Assembly (NCBI RefSeq): GCF_002847305.1
Contig: NZ_CP025408.1
Coordinates: forward strand, 248,001 to 312,000
DNA: 64,000 nt
Direction of reading: 5' to 3'
Source of the DNA: Paracoccus tegillarcae
GTDB taxonomy: Bacteria; Pseudomonadota; Alphaproteobacteria; Rhodobacterales; Rhodobacteraceae
In this document: in pieces, positions 2,907-18,530 of the stretch
Position numbering within the stretch: position 1 is the stretch's first letter
Layout: every line of letters starts with the position of its first letter
Program-made: the position numbers and the translations under genes
The notes under the pieces: model-generated
The model's database searches: none
The model's input: the letters and a program-made list of their open reading frames with translations, nothing else
What the model was told of the DNA's origin: nothing

Positions 2907-4460
2907 ATGACCCAGCATCAGCGCCTTCTCATCATCGATTTCGGCTCTCAGGTCACGCAGCTTATTGCGCGTCGCCTGCGCGAGTTGAACGTCTATTGCG
3001 AAATCCACCCCTATCAGAACGTGACCGACGCGTTCCTGCAGGACTTCGCGCCCAAAGCCGTCATCCTGTCCGGCGGCCCCGACAGCGTCACCCGCGAAGG
3101 ATCGCCCCGCGTCCCCGATAACCTGTGGGACATGGGCGTGCCGATCTTTGGCATCTGCTACGGTCAGCAGGTGATGATGCAGCAGCTTGGCGGTAACGTC
3201 GAAGCGGGCCATCACGCCGAATATGGCCGCGCTTTCGTCACCCCGGCGGCTGGTCACAGGAAAGACGGCATCTTTGCCGGACTGTCCGATCGCGAACAGG
3301 TCTGGATGAGCCATGGCGACCGCGTGACCGAACTGGCACCGGGGTTCGAGGTGATCGGCACCTCGCCCAACGCCCCCTTCGCGATCACCGCCGATGAATC
3401 GCGCGGTTTCTTTGCCGTGCAGTTCCACCCCGAGGTGCATCACACCCCGAATGGCAAGCTGATGCTGGAAAACTTTGTCCGCATGGCAGACCTGACCGGC
3501 GACTGGACCATGGCCGCCTACAAGGAAGAGGCGATCCGCAAGATCCGCGATCAGGTGGGCGACAAAAAGGTCATCTGCGGGCTGTCAGGCGGCGTGGATT
3601 CCTCCGTCGCGGCCGTTCTGATTCACGAGGCCATCGGCGACCAGCTGACCTGCGTCTTTGTCGATCACGGGTTGCTGCGCCTGAACGAAGCCGAAGAAGT
3701 CGTGACAATGTTCCGCGACAATTACAACATCCCGCTGATCCATGCCGACGAATCCGAGCTGTTCATCGGAGAGCTGGACGGCGTCAGCGACCCCGAGACC
3801 AAGCGCAAGATCATCGGCCGCCTGTTCATCGACGTGTTCCAGAAATACGCCAATGAAATCGACGGCGCCGAATTCCTGGCCCAGGGCACGCTCTATCCCG
3901 ACGTGATCGAATCCGTCAGCTTCTCTGGCGGCCCCTCGGTCACCATCAAATCGCACCACAATGTCGGCGGCTTGCCCGAAAAGATGGGCCTGAAACTGGT
4001 CGAACCCCTGCGCGAACTGTTCAAGGACGAGGTCCGCGCCCTTGGCCGCGAATTGGGCCTGCCCGACAGCTTCATCGGTCGCCACCCCTTCCCCGGCCCC
4101 GGCCTGGCCATCCGCTGCCCCGGCGAGATCACCCGCGAAAAGCTGGACATCCTGCGCAAGGCCGATGCCGTCTTCATCGACCAGATCCGCAAACACGGCC
4201 TTTACGACGATATCTGGCAAGCCTTCGTGGCCATCCTGCCCGTCCGCACCGTCGGCGTCATGGGCGACGGCCGCACCTATGACTTTGCCTGCGCCCTGCG
4301 CGCCGTCACCTCGGTCGATGGCATGACGGCGGATTATTACCCCTTCACCCACGATTTCCTGGGCGAAACCGCCACCCGCATCATCAACGAGGTCAAGGGC
4401 ATCAACCGCTGCACCTATGACATCACCTCAAAGCCTCCCGGCACGATTGAGTGGGAATAG
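2907..4460 (+). CDS. guaA: GMP synthase (glutamine-hydrolysing)
   Basis: This enzyme converts XMP to GMP, using ATP and ammonia from glutamine. The 517-residue protein shows the class I glutamine amidotransferase domain (Cys84 in FGICYGQQ; His174 and Glu176 in FHPEVHH). The N-type ATP pyrophosphatase domain has the P-loop SGGVDS at 227-232. The C-terminal dimerisation domain ends [11 protein letters not shown], as in the family. The length is normal. It stands alone, divergent from the CAP lipoprotein gene with about 120 bp between the starts. Confidence 0.98.
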
Positions 4461-4516
4461 GCCGGACCTGACGGAAAGCGATCAGCTTGCGCCAGCGGGC
4501 AGAATGCCGAGGCCTC

Positions 4517-5446
4517 TTACCCCCTCGCTGAATCGCTGGATGGATATGTTTTAACTTTGGTCGCGATTCTTTTGAATCTGTGTTCATTCCCGGTGCGAAA
4601 GTCTGGCAAGGCCTCGAATACGCCAACAAAGCGATATAGCGTCCTGTTTAATTCATCACGCGAGCGCGCCATTACGATGCGCGTATCGTAGGGTTCTTCG
4701 TAGACGTGTTCAGGGTTCTTGTTGATTTCAACGATTGTTTCACCGTCGTCCGAAAGTGAGTTGATCCAGTTTGGTTGCTCGTAAAGCTTTGGGAACCAGA
4801 CCATGCACTTACCTGGATGACCAATCGACTTTGCCACCTCAATCGGCAGATCCCATACGCCGCGCTGCCAGTGCCCCTTATTGTAGCCAAAGCAGTTCAA
4901 TGCATCTTTATGTGTCCTAAACGCGGCATGGGGGCCAATTTCGATGAACCCGGATTCCAAGTGCGGCGCTGCGGTAAAGCGCCGTTCGTAGTCCCATGGT
5001 CGAAAACGATTATCATCCACGGCGTTTTTCTTCCGCCGCCGAACAAGCTCAACAAAATTGTCGATACATTCATTGAACTTTTCTATTGTCACTTGGCTTG
5101 CTTTTATTCTTCGTTCTTCAAGCCCTGAAGCGCCTAATATATCAAAGCTGCGCTTGGCATCTTTGATCTTCGCTTGATCTACGTCGTAATGTCCTTCGTC
5201 GATTTCAAGATACAGCCCAAGCTGTGGAAAAAACAGGTCTACGAGATATAACTTGTCTTTTCCGCGACTGCATTGCTGACAAATGAACTCCAGGCCGGGA
5301 TCGTCAAGGCGATGATAGATCCGGTTGACCGCATAGTGCTCCCAACGCTTCTTTGATGTCTTTGAAAGTGACCTGAGTATGTAGTCAAATCGATTCACGA
5401 TTTGCTTTCCCCGCAATGAAATGTCCGACTTACAATACGAAGACAT
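4517..5446 (-). CDS. PvuRts1I/AbaSI-like modification-dependent endonuclease
   Basis: The protein has 309 residues. The N-terminal part (about 25-140) contains KTSKKRWEHYAVNRIYHRL, a QQC segment and YLVDLFFPQLGLYLEIDE. The acidic/His cluster (Asp70, Glu81, Asp83, Glu84, His86) fits a Vsr/PD-(D/E)XK-type nuclease core. The C-terminal part (about 150-300), with HAAFRTHKDALNCFGYNKG, VWFPKLYEQPNW and DGETIVEI, resembles the SRA-like domain of AbaSI/PvuRts1I enzymes. Those enzymes cut DNA carrying 5-hydroxymethyl- or glucosyl-hydroxymethyl-cytosine and need no partner methyltransferase. The gene is visibly AT-richer than its neighbours and lacks a modification partner, which suggests horizontal gain of an anti-phage gene. 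The assignment is from recalled motif similarity and has not been aligned. Confidence 0.72.
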   Translation of the reverse strand: MSSYCKSDISLRGKQIVNRFDYILRSLSKTSKKRWEHYAVNRIYHRLDDPGLEFICQQCSRGKDKLYLVDLFFPQLGLYLEIDEGHYDVDQAKIKDAKRSFDILGASGLEERRIKASQVTIEKFNECIDNFVELVRRRKKNAVDDNRFRPWDYERRFTAAPHLESGFIEIGPHAAFRTHKDALNCFGYNKGHWQRGVWDLPIEVAKSIGHPGKCMVWFPKLYEQPNWINSLSDDGETIVEINKNPEHVYEEPYDTRIVMARSRDELNRTLYRFVGVFEALPDFRTGNEHRFKRIATKVKTYPSSDSARG

Positions 5447-5528
5447 GCTTGTGATGAAAGAGGCCCGTCAGATGATCACTCGCAGTCTGTAGCAAAACCT
5501 GCTCCACCGCCCGCTGCCTGTGTACAGC

Positions 5529-5567
5529 CTGTGCACGCCCTGTGCCTCTTCTGTGCACGCCCTGTGC
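5529..5567. repeat. Two 17-bp direct repeats upstream of the DUF72 gene
   Basis: CTGTGCACGCCCTGTGC occurs perfectly at 5529-5545 and again at 5551-5567, a 22-bp period. Degenerate CTGTG/CCTGT units continue on both sides (from about 5517). They lie between the nuclease gene and the DUF72 gene. They could be regulatory or a scar of the island's insertion; no function is known. Confidence 0.6.
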
Positions 5568-5702
5568 AGCCTGAAACCCAGCATTTACTGGCCCGAACCA
5601 CATCGCCTCGCGCAACAGTTTCGCCACGCAACGCGCGCCCCTGTTGCGCGCCTGGGACTGCCCGACTACGCTCCGCGCAACACCATCCAAAAGAGGCGCA
5701 TC

Positions 5703-6434
5703 ATGATCCGCATCGGCATCGGCGGCTGGAACTTTCCGGAATGGCGCAAGGGTGTGTTCTATCCCGAGGGCCTGCCCCAGCGGCAAGAGCTTGAATTCGC
5801 CAGCCGCGCGCTGGGCAGCATCGAAATCAACGCCACATATTACCGCAGCCAAAAGCCGGAAAGCTTTCAGAAATGGCATGACGAAACCCCCGATGATTTC
5901 GCCTTCGCCGTCAAGGCCAGCCGCTTTGCCACCAACCGCCGCGTGCTGGCCGATGCGGGCGAAAGCGTCCAGCGTTTCCTGACCTCTGGCATCACCCGGC
6001 TTGGCCCAAAGCTGGGCCCGATCAACTGGCAATTCGCCGAAACCAAGCAATTCGACGCCGATGATTTCGCGGCCTTCCTGAACCTGCTGCCCGACAGTCA
6101 GGACGGCCAGCCCCTGCGCCACGCCATCGAGGCGCGGCACGAGACTTTCGCCGATCCCAAGGCCGCCGATCTCTGCCGCGACCGCAACATCGCGCTGATC
6201 CGTTCCATCGACAGCAAATTCCCCGATATCGACGCCGAAACCGCCGATTTCGCCTATGTCCGGCTGATGGGCACCACCGATATCGAAAGGGGCTATGACG
6301 ATGCAGCCCTTGACCGTCACGCGAGGGATGCCCGCCGCATGGCCGCTGGCCGCGATCTGTATCTCTATGTTATCTCTGGCGAAAAACACCGCAACCCGGC
6401 CTGCGCGCAGGCCCTGATGGAAAGACTGACATGA
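5703..6434 (+). CDS. DUF72 (YecE-like) family protein
   Basis: The 243-residue protein begins MIRIGIGGWNFPEWRKGVFYPEGL, the DUF72 opening. It continues with EINATYYRSQKPESFQKWHDETPDDFAFAVKASRF and an IEARHETF block, matching the TIM-barrel-like YecE family. ATG 5703 is preceded by AAGAGG at good spacing, while the upstream open frame is repeat-derived sequence. The biochemical role of DUF72 proteins is not established. The stop overlaps the next start (ATGA), so the two genes are probably co-translated. Confidence 0.87.
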   Translation: MIRIGIGGWNFPEWRKGVFYPEGLPQRQELEFASRALGSIEINATYYRSQKPESFQKWHDETPDDFAFAVKASRFATNRRVLADAGESVQRFLTSGITRLGPKLGPINWQFAETKQFDADDFAAFLNLLPDSQDGQPLRHAIEARHETFADPKAADLCRDRNIALIRSIDSKFPDIDAETADFAYVRLMGTTDIERGYDDAALDRHARDARRMAAGRDLYLYVISGEKHRNPACAQALMERLT

Positions 6435-12901: not shown

Positions 12902-12981
12902 TGAGCTACTCCCCGAAATTCGGACACTGACATAAGCTAGGATTTGCAGTCTGCTGATCTTCGACGAGAAGGAGATCAGAA

Positions 12982-13275
12982 ATGTCGAAACGCAAACAGC
13001 ACGCGCCTGAGTTCAAGGCGAGGGTCGCGCTGGAAGCCCTGAAGGGCGAGGAGACGGCGGCCGAGCTGGCGAGCCGGTTCGGGGTGCATCCCACGATGAT
13101 CCATCAATGGAAGCGAGCCCTGCTGGAAGGGGCCTCCGGCGTGTTCGAGCGCGGCGGTCGAAAGAAGCCCGAGATTGACGAGGAGCAGGTGAAGGAGCTT
13201 CACGCCAAGATCGGGGAGCTGGCGGTGGCCAACTCTTTTTTGGAACGAAAGCTGAAGCCCTGGGGCGGGAAGTGA
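12982..13275 (+). CDS. IS3-family transposase OrfA
   Basis: The 97-residue OrfA has an N-terminal helix-turn-helix (FKARVALEALKGEETAAELA then SRFGVHPTMIHQWKRALLEG) and a C-terminal leucine-zipper-like helix (VKELHAKIGELAVANSFLER). It binds the IS ends and, when fused to OrfB by frameshifting, makes the full transposase. It starts at ATG 12982 after GAAGGAG. It overlaps the GTG start of orfB by four bases. Confidence 0.92.
   Translation: MSKRKQHAPEFKARVALEALKGEETAAELASRFGVHPTMIHQWKRALLEGASGVFERGGRKKPEIDEEQVKELHAKIGELAVANSFLERKLKPWGGK
13236..13242 (+). other. Probable -1 programmed frameshift site in IS3
   Basis: The heptamer T_TTT_TTG lies in correct phase with orfA codons (TCT TTT TTG). A -1 slip here enters the orfB frame, which is open from this point through the orfB start. 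That would make an OrfAB fusion, the active transposase in IS3 elements. Confidence 0.6.
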
Positions 13276-14135
13276 GGCGCGGCATGATCGAGCCGGACTA
13301 TCCCCAGCTGTCCATCGGTCAGCAGTGCAAACTGCTCTCGATCGCGCGCTCGTCCTATTACTACGAGCCCAAGGGAGAAACCGAACAGAACCTCGGCCTG
13401 ATGCGGCAGATCGACGAGCAATTCCTTGAGACCCCGTTCTTCGGCGTCCGGCAGATGACCTGGCACCTGCGCAATGAGGGGCATCTCGTGAACGAGAAGC
13501 GGATACGCCGGCTAATGCGCCTCATGGGCTTGATGCCGATCTACCAGAAGCCCAATACCAGCAGGCCGGCGAAAGGGCACAAGACCTATCCCTACCTGCT
13601 GAAAGGGCTGCGTGTGGAACGCCCGAACCAGGTCTGGTGCTCGGATATAACCTATCTGCCCATGCGGCGCGGCTTCCTATACCTCGTCGCAATCATGGAC
13701 TGGCACACTCGAAAGGTCCTGTCCTGGCGGATCTCGAACACGCTGGAGGCCGACTTCTGTGTCGAGGCGCTGAACGAGGCCATCCACAAATTTGGCCCGC
13801 CCGAGATAATGAATACTGATCAAGGATCTCAGTTCACGTCCTTCGCTTGGACGGATCGGCTCCGCCGGTCGGGCGTGCGGATCTCGATGGATCGGAAAGG
13901 CCGTTTCCTGGACAACATCTTCATCGAGAGGCTGTGGCGCACCCTGAAATACGAGTGCGTCTACCTGCATGCCTGGGATACAGGATCAGAGACCAAGGCG
14001 GCCATCCGGAAATGGATGACCTTCTACAACCACCAGCGCCCGCACTCGGCCCTCGGCGGCAAGCCTCCGGCGCTGGTCTACTGGAAGAGAAATGATATCA
14101 ACCAACCCGATCAGCAGGTGCAACGAGTAGCTTAA
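13272..14135 (+). CDS. IS3-family transposase OrfB (DDE catalytic part)
   Basis: The 287-residue integrase-like catalytic domain has an HTH_21-type N-terminal part (FFGVRQMTWHLRNEGHLVNE). An rve core follows with the first Asp in VWCSDITYLP, the second in NTDQGSQFTS and the Glu in FIERLWRTLKYE, then the family ending FYNHQRPHSALGG. It is probably made mainly as a -1 frameshift fusion with OrfA. The GTG at 13272 could allow separate expression. It appears intact, so the IS may still be active. Confidence 0.93.
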   Translation: MRRGMIEPDYPQLSIGQQCKLLSIARSSYYYEPKGETEQNLGLMRQIDEQFLETPFFGVRQMTWHLRNEGHLVNEKRIRRLMRLMGLMPIYQKPNTSRPAKGHKTYPYLLKGLRVERPNQVWCSDITYLPMRRGFLYLVAIMDWHTRKVLSWRISNTLEADFCVEALNEAIHKFGPPEIMNTDQGSQFTSFAWTDRLRRSGVRISMDRKGRFLDNIFIERLWRTLKYECVYLHAWDTGSETKAAIRKWMTFYNHQRPHSALGGKPPALVYWKRNDINQPDQQVQRVA

Positions 14136-14174
14136 TCTACGCCAGATCCTGTCCAAGAGATGGGGAGTAGCTCA

Positions 14175-15091
14175 AAGCGACCCATAGCGAAGTATTATGA
14201 GGCCAAAACGCTTCTTCAATATAGTGAACTTTTCCAATTGTCCCAGAGCGTCCTGTCACGACACCTGGCCCATTGGTCCGGGCCTCGTTGTGGTGCTTCA
14301 AAATACCATTTGAGTAAACAATTGGGACTGAACCCGGTTCAATTTTTTCGTTTGGCAGATCAAACCCACGCTGTAGTGGGGCAACGTCCGACAGTGCCTT
14401 CTCCTCCCAATCCGGGAAGGGTTGGCCGTCGTCGCGGGTGAAGCGGAGGGTTTGGGCGAAAGGCTGTTGCATCAGGCCGTATTTGAACGCCTCCAGCCCG
14501 CCCTTCTTGCGCTGCAAACCCGCCAGCTTGGCATCCACCACCCCCAAAAACGCTGCGATTTTTGTTTGTTCGGGGAGGGAGGGAGGGAAGAAACAAATGC
14601 GTGGAAAGAATAGTCTTGTTCGACGTGTGACGAACAGTTGAACCAGTAGCCGTTTCGCGTATTCGCAGCAAGAAAGCCGCCGTCTGCATAAATTGTAGAA
14701 TGAGGTCTTTGCGAGCAAGCGACTCTTCTACTTCGATCTGTGCAATACGTTGATTCAATAGAACAGGCTCATCGTCTTTAGTTAGAAGAAGGGGACGCCC
14801 GAGCAATTCGCAACTTGGATTTAGGTCCGTCAGAAGGACAAGCAGGTCGCCAGACTTGCATTGAAATTTTTTGTCCACTTTTTCAGTGGTTCGCTTGCAG
14901 AAAGCTGCTGCGAATTTACCCCTTCCATTCTTGCTGAAATTCTTTGGAATGACGAGTAGGCTACCTTCGTCACAAAAAAGTTCACTCGAAAATGCATAAC
15001 CGGACTGTAATTGCGCGACAGACGAGAACCTTGATCCAACCCACTCCCCCTCAAACCCCGGAAACCGCAGGGCTGGCACCACCCCGCTCAT
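14175..15091 (-). pseudogene. hsdS: Type I restriction specificity subunit HsdS, frameshifted and IS-truncated
   Basis: ATG 15091 overlaps the hsdM stop (ATGA). The first frame encodes VPALRFPGFEGEW and a first target-recognition domain up to ILSTHLFLPSLP. The conserved LPEQTKIAAFLGVVDAKLAG and the second domain (QPFPDWEEKALSDVAPLQRG to AFWPHNTSLWV) continue in another frame. The shift is inside a GGGA tetranucleotide run at 14573-14588. The gene is then cut at 14174 by the IS3 element, and its 3' end is not found across the IS. Specificity is therefore lost unless slippage restores the frame, and even then the C-terminus is missing. Confidence 0.88.
14573..14588. repeat. (GGGA)4 tetranucleotide tract in hsdS
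   Basis: Four tandem GGGA units (CCCT on the coding strand) coincide with the hsdS frame change. Removing one unit would give coding Leu-Pro-Ser-Leu-Pro-Glu-Gln and rejoin the two halves. Such tracts slip during replication and cause phase variation in some type I hsdS genes. Confidence 0.75.
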
Positions 15092-16641
15092 ACCGGGGAC
15101 TCCAGACCCAGCTCAGCGCAAAATGCGCGCAGTTGGGCGTCGATGTCGGCCATTTCCGCCTCAACCCCGCGCAGGTCTGCCGTCACGGCGGCCAGATCAA
15201 TCGCCTTCGCCGCCTCAAACGTCTCGACATAGCGCGGGATGTTCAGGTTATGGTCATTTCCGGCAATCTCCTCCCGGCTGGCCGCGTGCGAAAACCGCGC
15301 CACCACCGCGCGCGACCGGTAAGCGCTGACGATCTGGTCAATATCGCCTTCGCGCAGATAGTTCTGGTTCTTGGCCTTCTCGAAACAGCCGGATGCATCG
15401 ACGAACAGCACATCCTCCGTCTCGCGGCATTTCTTGAACACCATCAGGCAGGTGGGAATGGAGGTGCCGTAAAAGATATTTGCGGGCAGGCCGATCACCG
15501 CATCCAGCCAGTTCTTTTCGCGTATGATGAATTCGCGGATCGCCCCCTCGGCCCCGCCCCGGAACAGCGCGCCGTGGGGCAGCACCACGGCCATGGTGCC
15601 ATTGTCATCCAGATGCGCCAGCATGTGCTGTACAAAGGCGAAATCGGCCTTGGACGCCGGGGCCAGCCGCCCGTATTGCGCAAAGCGGTCATCCGACAGC
15701 ATCACCGGGCGCGCGGCCCATTTGGCCGAAAACGGCGGGTTGGCCACGATGGCCTCGAACAGCATCCCCTCATGCTGGGGGTGTTCCAGCGTATCCTCCT
15801 GCCGCAGGTTGAAATTGCGGTAGCTGACCCCGTGCAGGATCATGTTCATCCGCGCAAGGTTATAGGTGGTGCGGTTCATTTCCTGACCGAAGAAGTCATC
15901 GACCTGACCCACCTCACGCGCGACGCGCAACAGCAGCGACCCGGACCCGCAGGTCGGATCATAGACCGACCGCAGCCGCGATTTGCCGGTGGTGACGATG
16001 CGCGCCAGAATGGTGGAGACCTCTTGCGGGGTATAGAACTCGCCCGCCTTTTTGCCGGCGCCCGATGCGAACTGGCCGATCAGGTATTCATAGGCATCGC
16101 CCAGAATATCGCTGTCGGCATCGTCCAGCGCGAAGTCGATGGCATCAAGGTGGGTCAGCACGCGTGAGATCAGATCGTTCTTGGCCTCTTCGGCGCGGCC
16201 CAGCTTGGTCGAAGACAGGTCAAGGTCTTCGAACAGATGGTCGAAATCTTCCTCGGATTCGGTGCCCATCGTGGAGCGTTCGATATTGTTCAGGATGGTC
16301 TGCAATTCGCCCAGGATGAACTGCCCTTCGGCACCCCGGCGGGCGACGGCGGTGAAAAGCTCGGACGGGCGCAGGAAATACCCCAGCGCCTCCAGCGCGG
16401 CATCGCGGACTGCATCCAGAACGGCATCGCCATGCGGCTGGCCCTCGGCAATGTCCGTATAGGCCACGCCATCCTCGGCCAGAATCCGGTCGGCATAGAG
16501 GTTCATGCGTTCCGACAGGTATTTGTAGAAGATGAACCCCAGAATATAGTCGCGAAACTCATCCGCGCCCATCTTGCCCCGCAGGGTATTGGCGATGTCC
16601 CAGAGCTTTTGCTCCAGCTTCTTTTTCTGCTCGTCAGTCAT
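15088..16641 (-). CDS. hsdM: Type I restriction-modification methyltransferase subunit HsdM
   Basis: The 517-residue N6-adenine methyltransferase subunit has an N-terminal HsdM_N helical domain (DEQKKKLEQKLWDIANTLRG then ADEFRDYILGFIFYKYLSER). Its SAM motif I is YDPTCGSGSLLLRVA and its catalytic motif IV is VANPPFSAKW. The start is taken at ATG 16641 because the family begins near there; the frame runs open to 16701. It looks intact, but its HsdS partner is broken and no hsdR lies within the window, so the system should be non-functional or depend on subunits elsewhere. Confidence 0.95.
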   Translation of the reverse strand: MTDEQKKKLEQKLWDIANTLRGKMGADEFRDYILGFIFYKYLSERMNLYADRILAEDGVAYTDIAEGQPHGDAVLDAVRDAALEALGYFLRPSELFTAVARRGAEGQFILGELQTILNNIERSTMGTESEEDFDHLFEDLDLSSTKLGRAEEAKNDLISRVLTHLDAIDFALDDADSDILGDAYEYLIGQFASGAGKKAGEFYTPQEVSTILARIVTTGKSRLRSVYDPTCGSGSLLLRVAREVGQVDDFFGQEMNRTTYNLARMNMILHGVSYRNFNLRQEDTLEHPQHEGMLFEAIVANPPFSAKWAARPVMLSDDRFAQYGRLAPASKADFAFVQHMLAHLDDNGTMAVVLPHGALFRGGAEGAIREFIIREKNWLDAVIGLPANIFYGTSIPTCLMVFKKCRETEDVLFVDASGCFEKAKNQNYLREGDIDQIVSAYRSRAVVARFSHAASREEIAGNDHNLNIPRYVETFEAAKAIDLAAVTADLRGVEAEMADIDAQLRAFCAELGLESPV

Positions 16642-16946
16642 CTGGGCGCGCCGGGGTAAAATACGGATAATGCTCGGAAAACCGGCCCGCGCTTGGGTCA
16701 TGCGGTATTCTTAGGCAGTGGGGGCGGGCATGACAACGCAGGGCGCGCGGATTTATGTGGAAAAGGTGGGGGGAAGGATTGGGCAGGTGATTGGCATGCC
16801 TGCATCAACCGTCAGCCTAAAGTCCGACGGGGCCGCATGGCGCAAGAGTCAAACAACGCGCTTACTTGTATCGTCACGATGAACAGCAGGTGAACATCGA
16901 GCATTGCAGCACCGTGTGTATGGGGGCCGTTCCTGCGCATGCTTTG
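16642..16946. other. Intergenic region upstream of hsdM
   Basis: These 305 bases separate hsdM from the 3' end of the AAA+ ATPase gene. They must contain the hsdM promoter. I see no convincing gene, hairpin terminator or repeat in them. Confidence 0.4.
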
Positions 16947-18047
16947 TCAGTGCAGTCGGACGCCAATTGCCTGAAGCTGCGCAGCCCTTTCGATCATCCG
17001 CACCACAGTCCGAAGGCTCAAGTTGAACTGATCATGGCGTTCGATGGCTTCAATAACCGCCTCGATTGAAACCTCGTCCAGAGCCTTTCTTTGTCCTTCG
17101 CGTCGGGCGAAGCCGACCAGTTCGGCGGTAGTGATTTCCTGCAGCCGGATCGGGGGGCAGCGGCTTAGAAGCGGTTCCAGCAAGCTGGCCGCGTTGTTCG
17201 ATGTCATCACCCAGTTTACATAGCTCATATCAAATTTGACTTCGAAATAGGGGCAAGACCAGCCTGCAGCGCTAAGCGGCTCCAGCAAGGGAAGCAGCGC
17301 ATCGGTCAAGCTATAGGCTTCGCCCCTCTTCGATTCCGCTCGCCCGCTCTTTTCCACTTCATCACCCACCACGACGGGGTTACCGACCCGCGTCGCAAGG
17401 ATGGTGTTGAGCAAGCGGCCGGGATTTGAATTCCCCCAGTTGAGCTACGACCCGACGAGGCCAAAGGACGCGTTCTCCACGGTTGCTTCATAGGCGATGG
17501 TTGGCACTTTGATCAGGTTGGCCAGCGTGCGGGCCCAGGCACTTTTGCCAATGCCCGGCAGGCTGTCCAACAGCATTAGGGGCAGGCGCAGGCCGATATC
17601 GCCATCTCGTGCGGAGAGGCGCATACCGTGCCAGACGGCTTCGGTAGCCGGACCCATCCATGGAAATTCGGCGTGGAGAGCCGCCGCAAGTTCATCGGCC
17701 TGATGTTCGGTCTCGATCTGCACCAGACGAACGCCTCCGCGCAATGCCTCCAGCTTCTTCAGGTCATCGGGTTTCAAATGCGATAGCCCGCTGCCTTGTG
17801 AAAAGCGGTCGCTTATCTTGGTGGCGCGGCGCTCGATTTTGCGACTTTCCTCAGGGTCGGGGCGGAGAGGATCCTTTTGGTTCAGCCAGTCCAGATCGTT
17901 TTTGGCCGCCGCCTCAATCAGAGCAGCAGTTTGCTGCTGTCGGGCCGCAAGAAGCTTGCGACGATGTGCAAGGAGGCGTGCGGTGATCTGCGCCCTTGAA
18001 CGCGCGGGGTCCGGAAGGCGTGCTTGGATGAAACGGAACGGTGGCAT
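16947..18047 (-). pseudogene. Lon-like AAA+ ATPase gene with in-frame amber stop
   Basis: Two minus-strand open stretches in the same frame (18047-17445 and 17444-16947) read as one AAA+ protein of about 366 codons. The Walker A-like box is DSLPGIGKSAWARTLA, followed by YEATVENASFGLVGS, then TAG (17447-17445), then LNWGNSNPGRLLNTILATRV, Walker B-like PVVVGDEVEKSG, a sensor-type MTSNNAASLLEPLLSRCP and an arginine-rich lid. Family members read GSQ at the stop position, so one C-to-T change (CAG to TAG) explains it. ATG 18047 has AGGA upstream. It could be a pseudogene or make a truncated 200-residue product with no Walker B. Confidence 0.7.
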
Positions 18048-18530
18048 GGCATGTCCTGTGGCGGTTGATGCGGCGAGGCCGCGCTGCACCCTATCCCCGT
18101 GGAAAGGGCGCAGAAAAAAGGAAAGGACCGGGCCTGCAGGGCCCCTTGTTCAGTGCGAACAAGGCCGGCGTGATGGGGGAGGATTGAGGGCTGGCGATGC
18201 TGACGTCAACCGGGGGAGGCGGGCCACGCGGCCGGTTCAGCCGTTGTTGTTCTGCTCAACGCGACTTCCCATAATACGTTGATTCAAAAACTGAATTCAG
18301 AATTCGAACTTCTGGGTGGACAGCAACCATGTGTGAAAATGGTCAAAACCCCCCCAAATTGGACATTATTTCCTGTGTCCGACAAAACGCGCGGCAGGCA
18401 AGCTCGATTGATTTAGCTTATTTGCATTTTGCACAACGTCACCCCGGCATAGTTTGCAAATTTTCCCGATTTTTCTTTTCTCTGCGGTGCGGCAGGCGTA
18501 GTTTCGCGCAACTTCACCGGGAGGCTTCGC
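18048..18530. other. Long intergenic region between the AAA+ gene and pccB
   Basis: These 483 bases become AT-rich towards pccB. They contain the pccB promoter region and the TTTGCA-type motifs listed separately. No open frame here looks coding. This marks the junction between the degraded defence region and the core propionate genes. Confidence 0.5.
18421..18460 (+). promoter_or_regulatory. Candidate ScfR/PccR-type operator upstream of pccB
   Basis: TTTGCATTTTGCACAA (18421-18436) and TTTGCAAA (18453-18460) lie 70-110 bases before the pccB start. The ScfR-family regulator PccR of Rhodobacter sphaeroides is reported to bind TTTGCAAA-type repeats upstream of pccB. The match is partial and no pccR gene is in this window. 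Confidence 0.4.

Follow-up and report, generated by a model that had tools for sequence, protein, structure and literature searches.

We analyzed a 64,000-nucleotide stretch of Paracoccus tegillarcae DNA (contig NZ_CP025408.1, positions 248,001 to 312,000; the whole stretch is called the window, and its first letter is position 1), focusing on a minus-strand gene in the slot after guaA. Probably, this gene was acquired by horizontal transfer and encodes, on its own, a PvuRts1I-family restriction enzyme of Type IV (modification-dependent) in an impaired copy, a judgment that covers the whole statement, impairment included. Specifically, tyrosine replaces the otherwise invariant His74 of PvuRts1I inside the active-site motif, a replacement that, judging from the alignment, is expected to lower or abolish cutting in this copy. 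The gene descends from an enzyme cutting DNA that carries 5-hydroxymethylcytosine (5hmC) or glucosyl-5-hydroxymethylcytosine (5ghmC), and present cutting by this copy is doubtful.

Family Assignment and Active Site

Membership of the PvuRts1I/AbaSI family is virtually certain as judged from sequence comparison and structural modeling. The predicted protein gave a full-length match to PvuRts1I (4oq2, E 2.6e-97; 4oky, E 4.5e-97), and its match to AbaSI was weaker (4par, E 4.5e-46). The Pfam models PvuRts1I-like_N (PF21598) and SRA (PF18491), both above cut-off, covered 21-116 and 163-300 of the 309-codon open frame, and PADLOC returned mREase_II (3.7e-99). The structural model fitted PvuRts1I across both domains, with about 52% identity in the superposition. 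NCBIfam models gave no match to the nuclease protein, and PHROGs gave two matches only, both at E 0.08. An earlier note on this DNA had proposed a PvuRts1I/AbaSI-like enzyme with a nuclease N-terminus and an SRA-like C-terminus, and these results confirm both the identity and the two-part layout; the profile search and structure comparison that it suggested found nuclease and SRA cores and not a plain Vsr protein. The domain border given here is that of PvuRts1I (PMC4027163), not shifted for an alignment gap. Several homologs are named very-short-patch-repair endonuclease by JGI, and the PvuRts1I nuclease domain is reported to resemble Vsr (PMC4157451), which might point to a Vsr mismatch-repair endonuclease; however, the Vsr model is absent from the Pfam and NCBIfam matches, an SRA domain is fused to the nuclease domain, and PvuRts1I is matched full-length in both sequence and structure, and we regard this identity as extremely improbable.

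Residues are counted from the GTG start, and PvuRts1I numbers are higher by three from about residue 48 and by four from about residue 173. In PvuRts1I numbering, active-site Glu20, Asp57, Glu68, and Glu71 are all present, and the active-site residues discussed in the published work on PvuRts1I are all retained save His74, where codon 5186-5188 encodes Tyr. Column counts were drawn from two protein searches (best 120 of 146 and best 120 of 643 matches). The only Tyr at this column belonged to the Paracoccus protein, whether the count covered 120 homologs including that protein (His 116, gap 3), 139 aligned homologs after a profile search had been added (His 135, gap 3), or 78 non-redundant sequences with <85% identity (His 76, gap 1). 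The scan of 28 homolog loci used below was excluded from these counts, as its search pattern partly selected for His there. Position 73 is variable across homologs, and those with Gln or Tyr at 73 retain His74; the Paracoccus protein keeps His73. In PvuRts1I, His74 was described as absolutely conserved, and residues 71-76 are invisible in one DNA-free crystal (PMC4157451). Mutation of Glu20 or Asp57 left the enzyme with greatly reduced or no activity, mutation of Glu71 with none, and mutation of Lys17 with residual activity at most, and Glu68 was not testable by mutation (PMC4027163). In addition, several active-site-motif mutants were inactive, Asp70Ala excepted, the available text being silent on which residues were mutated (PMC4157451).

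Several observations weigh against impairment. Having one private change is not unusual in this family, since 19 of 73 non-redundant homologs carry at least one at columns that are at least 98.5% conserved in the others; the weight of Tyr74 comes from its place inside the active-site motif, not from being private. Besides, the frame is uninterrupted and full length with no further private change at strongly conserved columns, His73 is retained next to Tyr74, a sequencing error at the Tyr74 codon is possible, and a direct mutational test of His74 was not identified in the available text of PMC4157451. The intact frame and the lack of further such changes, together with a probable ribosome-binding site and the retention of every other active-site and mutation-tested pocket residue, would fit a fully or near-fully active enzyme, in which Tyr74 is tolerated (perhaps with His73 substituting) or is a sequencing error, and which would provide a working defense against 5hmC/5ghmC phages. 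However, His74 is otherwise invariant among the aligned homologs, even where position 73 is Gln or Tyr, and the motif that holds it gave mostly inactive mutants (PMC4157451). Because of Tyr74, we consider full or near-full activity rather unlikely and impairment probable. A changed chemistry, in which the modified-base pocket is kept and the protein either nicks DNA or senses hydroxymethylated DNA by binding alone, hindering phages without double-strand cuts, would agree with an intact pocket beside a single altered active-site residue; yet there was no sign of selection for such a role, the change being unshared by relatives among the 139 aligned, and we give this explanation very little weight.

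The base-recognition pocket is largely kept: Trp201, Pro203, Trp211, Asn213, and Glu224 correspond to PvuRts1I Trp205, Pro207, Trp215, Asn217, and Glu228. Activity was lost in the PvuRts1I mutants Trp215Ala and Glu228Ala, and the effect of Arg208Ala was mild (PMC4027163). Two pocket residues depart from PvuRts1I, Arg208 to Lys and Ala212 to Gln, and both departures are common in the family (Lys in 53 and Gln in 42 of 120 homologs). Since Ala212 is Gln here and PvuRts1I Ala212Asn had a lowered preference for 5hmC according to the family papers, the selectivity of the Paracoccus protein may differ also.

In an active enzyme of this type, a dimer would recognize 5hmC or 5ghmC via the SRA-like pocket, with the marked base probably flipped into it, and the Mg2+-dependent PD-(D/E)XK domains would then cleave both strands and leave 2-base 3' overhangs; the host DNA would be free of the mark, and therefore no partner methylase would be required. 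For the Paracoccus protein, the substrate, cut position, dimer, and anti-phage role are predicted by analogy with the family. In its characterized members, the SRA domain is the presumed reader of 5hmC or 5ghmC, Mg2+ is required, PvuRts1I is a dimer, and cuts at a distance of 11-13 bases on one strand and 9-10 bases on its complement give 2-base 3' ends; the optimal substrate has a marked cytosine on each strand, with about 22 bases between them (PMC4027163, PMC4157451, PMC3874153). Base flipping was not directly observed in one PvuRts1I study (PMC4027163). Regarding possible targets, a search of phages with the T4 deoxycytidine monophosphate (dCMP) hydroxymethylase gave 1121 records, thymidylate synthases included. 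Alphaproteobacterial phages were not among the ten organism names tallied, 36 further names lying outside the tally and 60 of the 1121 records being listed. A literature search at index-record level found no description of a Paracoccus phage with hydroxymethylcytosine.

Gene Extent and Composition

The minus-strand interval 4517-5446 is one open frame of 309 codons. The earlier note had placed the start at the ATG at 5446, which is too far upstream, and the GTG at 5398 is likelier because frame residue 18 pairs with PvuRts1I residue 2 in the sequence alignment, the database copy of the Paracoccus protein (P0001) has 293 residues, and GGGGAAAG, a probable ribosome-binding site, stops 6 bases ahead of this GTG (upstream of it stands GGGGAAAGCAAATC). 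The gene is thus most likely 4517-5398 on the evidence of sequence. Most N-termini of 28 homologs start within a few residues of the same point, and several are longer. The guanine-cytosine (GC) content of the gene is 0.48, and 0.53 at third codon positions (GC3), against medians of 0.62 and 0.77 in the 36 other open reading frames (ORFs) of the window that we chose for comparison; the AT-richer DNA remarked on earlier is therefore real. The features are collected in Table 1.

Table 1. Coordinates of the endonuclease gene, its parts, and the adjacent repeats in the window.
Feature	Position	Strand	Basis or detail
PvuRts1I-family endonuclease gene, likely extent	4517..5398	-	GTG start, 293 codons + stop
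N-terminal nuclease domain, residues 1-140	4979..5398	-	PF21598, model fit, PMC4027163 border
C-terminal SRA-like domain with base pocket, residues 141-293	4517..4978	-	PF18491, column counts
Active-site motif EIDEGHY, residues 65-71 (PvuRts1I EIDEAHH, 68-74)	5186..5206	-	alignment columns
11-base-period direct repeats, flanking only	5518..5567	+	three 17-base copies

Genomic Context and Distribution

The gene was probably acquired horizontally, and its presence is sporadic. Within the genus, only the window's own genome carried it among 125 genomes, and it was found in 3 of 295 genomes drawn across the family, again including its own; the other two carriers were G288, with a frameshifted Sedimentitalea copy (L044), and G260, with a 38% relative. 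Among relatives assigned to a named organism, the closest belong to Rhodobacterales, so the gene may have circulated within this order, as far as sequence comparison can tell. Among these homologs, the Sedimentitalea copy (L044, in two pieces) has 66-70% identity and those of Yoonia (L038) and Sulfitobacter (L039) have 60%; unlike the Paracoccus protein, all three carry His at position 74. By eye, the L044 copy stands alone among unrelated genes like the Paracoccus gene, and the L038 copy adjoins a transposase-like ORF. Plasmids yielded 49 records with a relative, all below 60% identity; 40 of them were from Providencia, Moellerella, or Proteus, Providencia accounting for 27. Ten phage records held a distant relative. 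A 31% homolog with the annotation hypothetical protein is present in six Streptococcus suis phage records (H31-H36), and these are phage-borne family members. On the viral contig L036 (1-15401), a 58% homolog is likely cargo; by eye, it stands beside P4-type primase-, glycosyltransferase group-, and integrase-like genes.

Two of the 28 homolog loci are split by frameshifts and one (L065) is cut by a contig end. At both L044:8001-8859 (uncultured Sedimentitalea) and L046:8001-8874 (Proteus penneri ATCC 33519), the frameshift comes soon after the active-site motif, and assembly error is possible in either. Frequent decay of the family was considered and found to be too strong a statement, as the L051 gene simply ends at its natural stop.

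The gene is flanked by guaA (2907-4460) on one side and by a DUF72-type gene (frame 5520-6434, ATG at 5703) on the other, both labels being those of the earlier note. The other overlapping frames of at least 80 codons in this slot are all antisense frames, and the orphan position that had been described is well supported, with no other plausible gene there. No flanking direct repeats suitable as integration ends were seen in 4300-5760, and the window has no tRNA gene. Searching the 125 genus genomes with guaA gave 30 loci, one being the window's own. Among the 29 others, a DUF72 match lay within about 1.5 kb at 4 (L008, L013, L014, L015), 6 matched the next gene instead (L017, L027-L030, L033), and 19 were without a downstream match, L024 and L026 of these being shortened by contig ends; frames were inspected by eye at 10 of the 29. 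No clean empty site was found among these 29 loci. The gene content of the slot after guaA varies.

The direct repeats that had been reported on one side of the gene are present and are unrelated to it. The unit CTGTGYACRSC had 51 matches in the Paracoccus genome vs 3 for the reversed control pattern. These lie at 21 places, 17 of which hold at least two matches, with 11 as the commonest spacing; of the 61 genus genomes scanned, its own among them, 23 had two-unit matches and none matched the reversed pattern. We rejected the repeats as part of the nuclease gene, because they are a dispersed family and a similar cluster stands ahead of the DUF72 gene in the relative G383 (L013), which is without the nuclease. 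They belong to the host lineage. Their 11-base period resembles a helical turn, and one might guess at a candidate array of protein-binding sites.

Elsewhere in the window, 12950-16701 holds a degraded type I restriction locus, with hsdM (PF02384, PF12161) and, by eye, an adjoining hsdS-like gene that is split over two frames (14360-15091, 14137-14718) and ends at an IS3-family element. At family level, this element matches Rhodobacterales, with Paracoccus accounting for 9 of the 39 records. No hsdR was recognized beside the locus, the search being confined to the locus and not genome-wide. Two further frames on the minus strand (16947-17414 and 17445-18089) resemble, by eye, fragments of a single broken gene for an ATPase or Lon-like protease.

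Comparison With Characterized Enzymes

The family and its mechanism are already known, and what is new is the Tyr at the His74 position, a departure that more likely lowers than raises the importance of this gene. If the enzyme is active, it would be one more of the PvuRts1I type, from Rhodobacterales and outside the enterobacterial plasmids that dominate the plasmid matches, and would hint that hydroxymethylated-cytosine phages infect Rhodobacterales. If it is inactive, it would serve as a naturally occurring test of what His74 does, in a stretch that one DNA-free crystal does not reveal (PMC4157451). Compared with PvuRts1I (4oq2, 4oky), the Paracoccus protein has the same 293-residue length, the same two domains, and a full-length alignment, and its catalytic and pocket residues are the same except His74 to Tyr, Arg208 to Lys, and Ala212 to Gln; unlike PvuRts1I, its gene is chromosomal. 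AbaSI (4par) is more distant and carries His where the Paracoccus protein carries Tyr. Vsr endonuclease has a related nuclease fold according to PMC4157451, but differs in that no Vsr model matches the Paracoccus protein, in which the nuclease is fused to an SRA domain.
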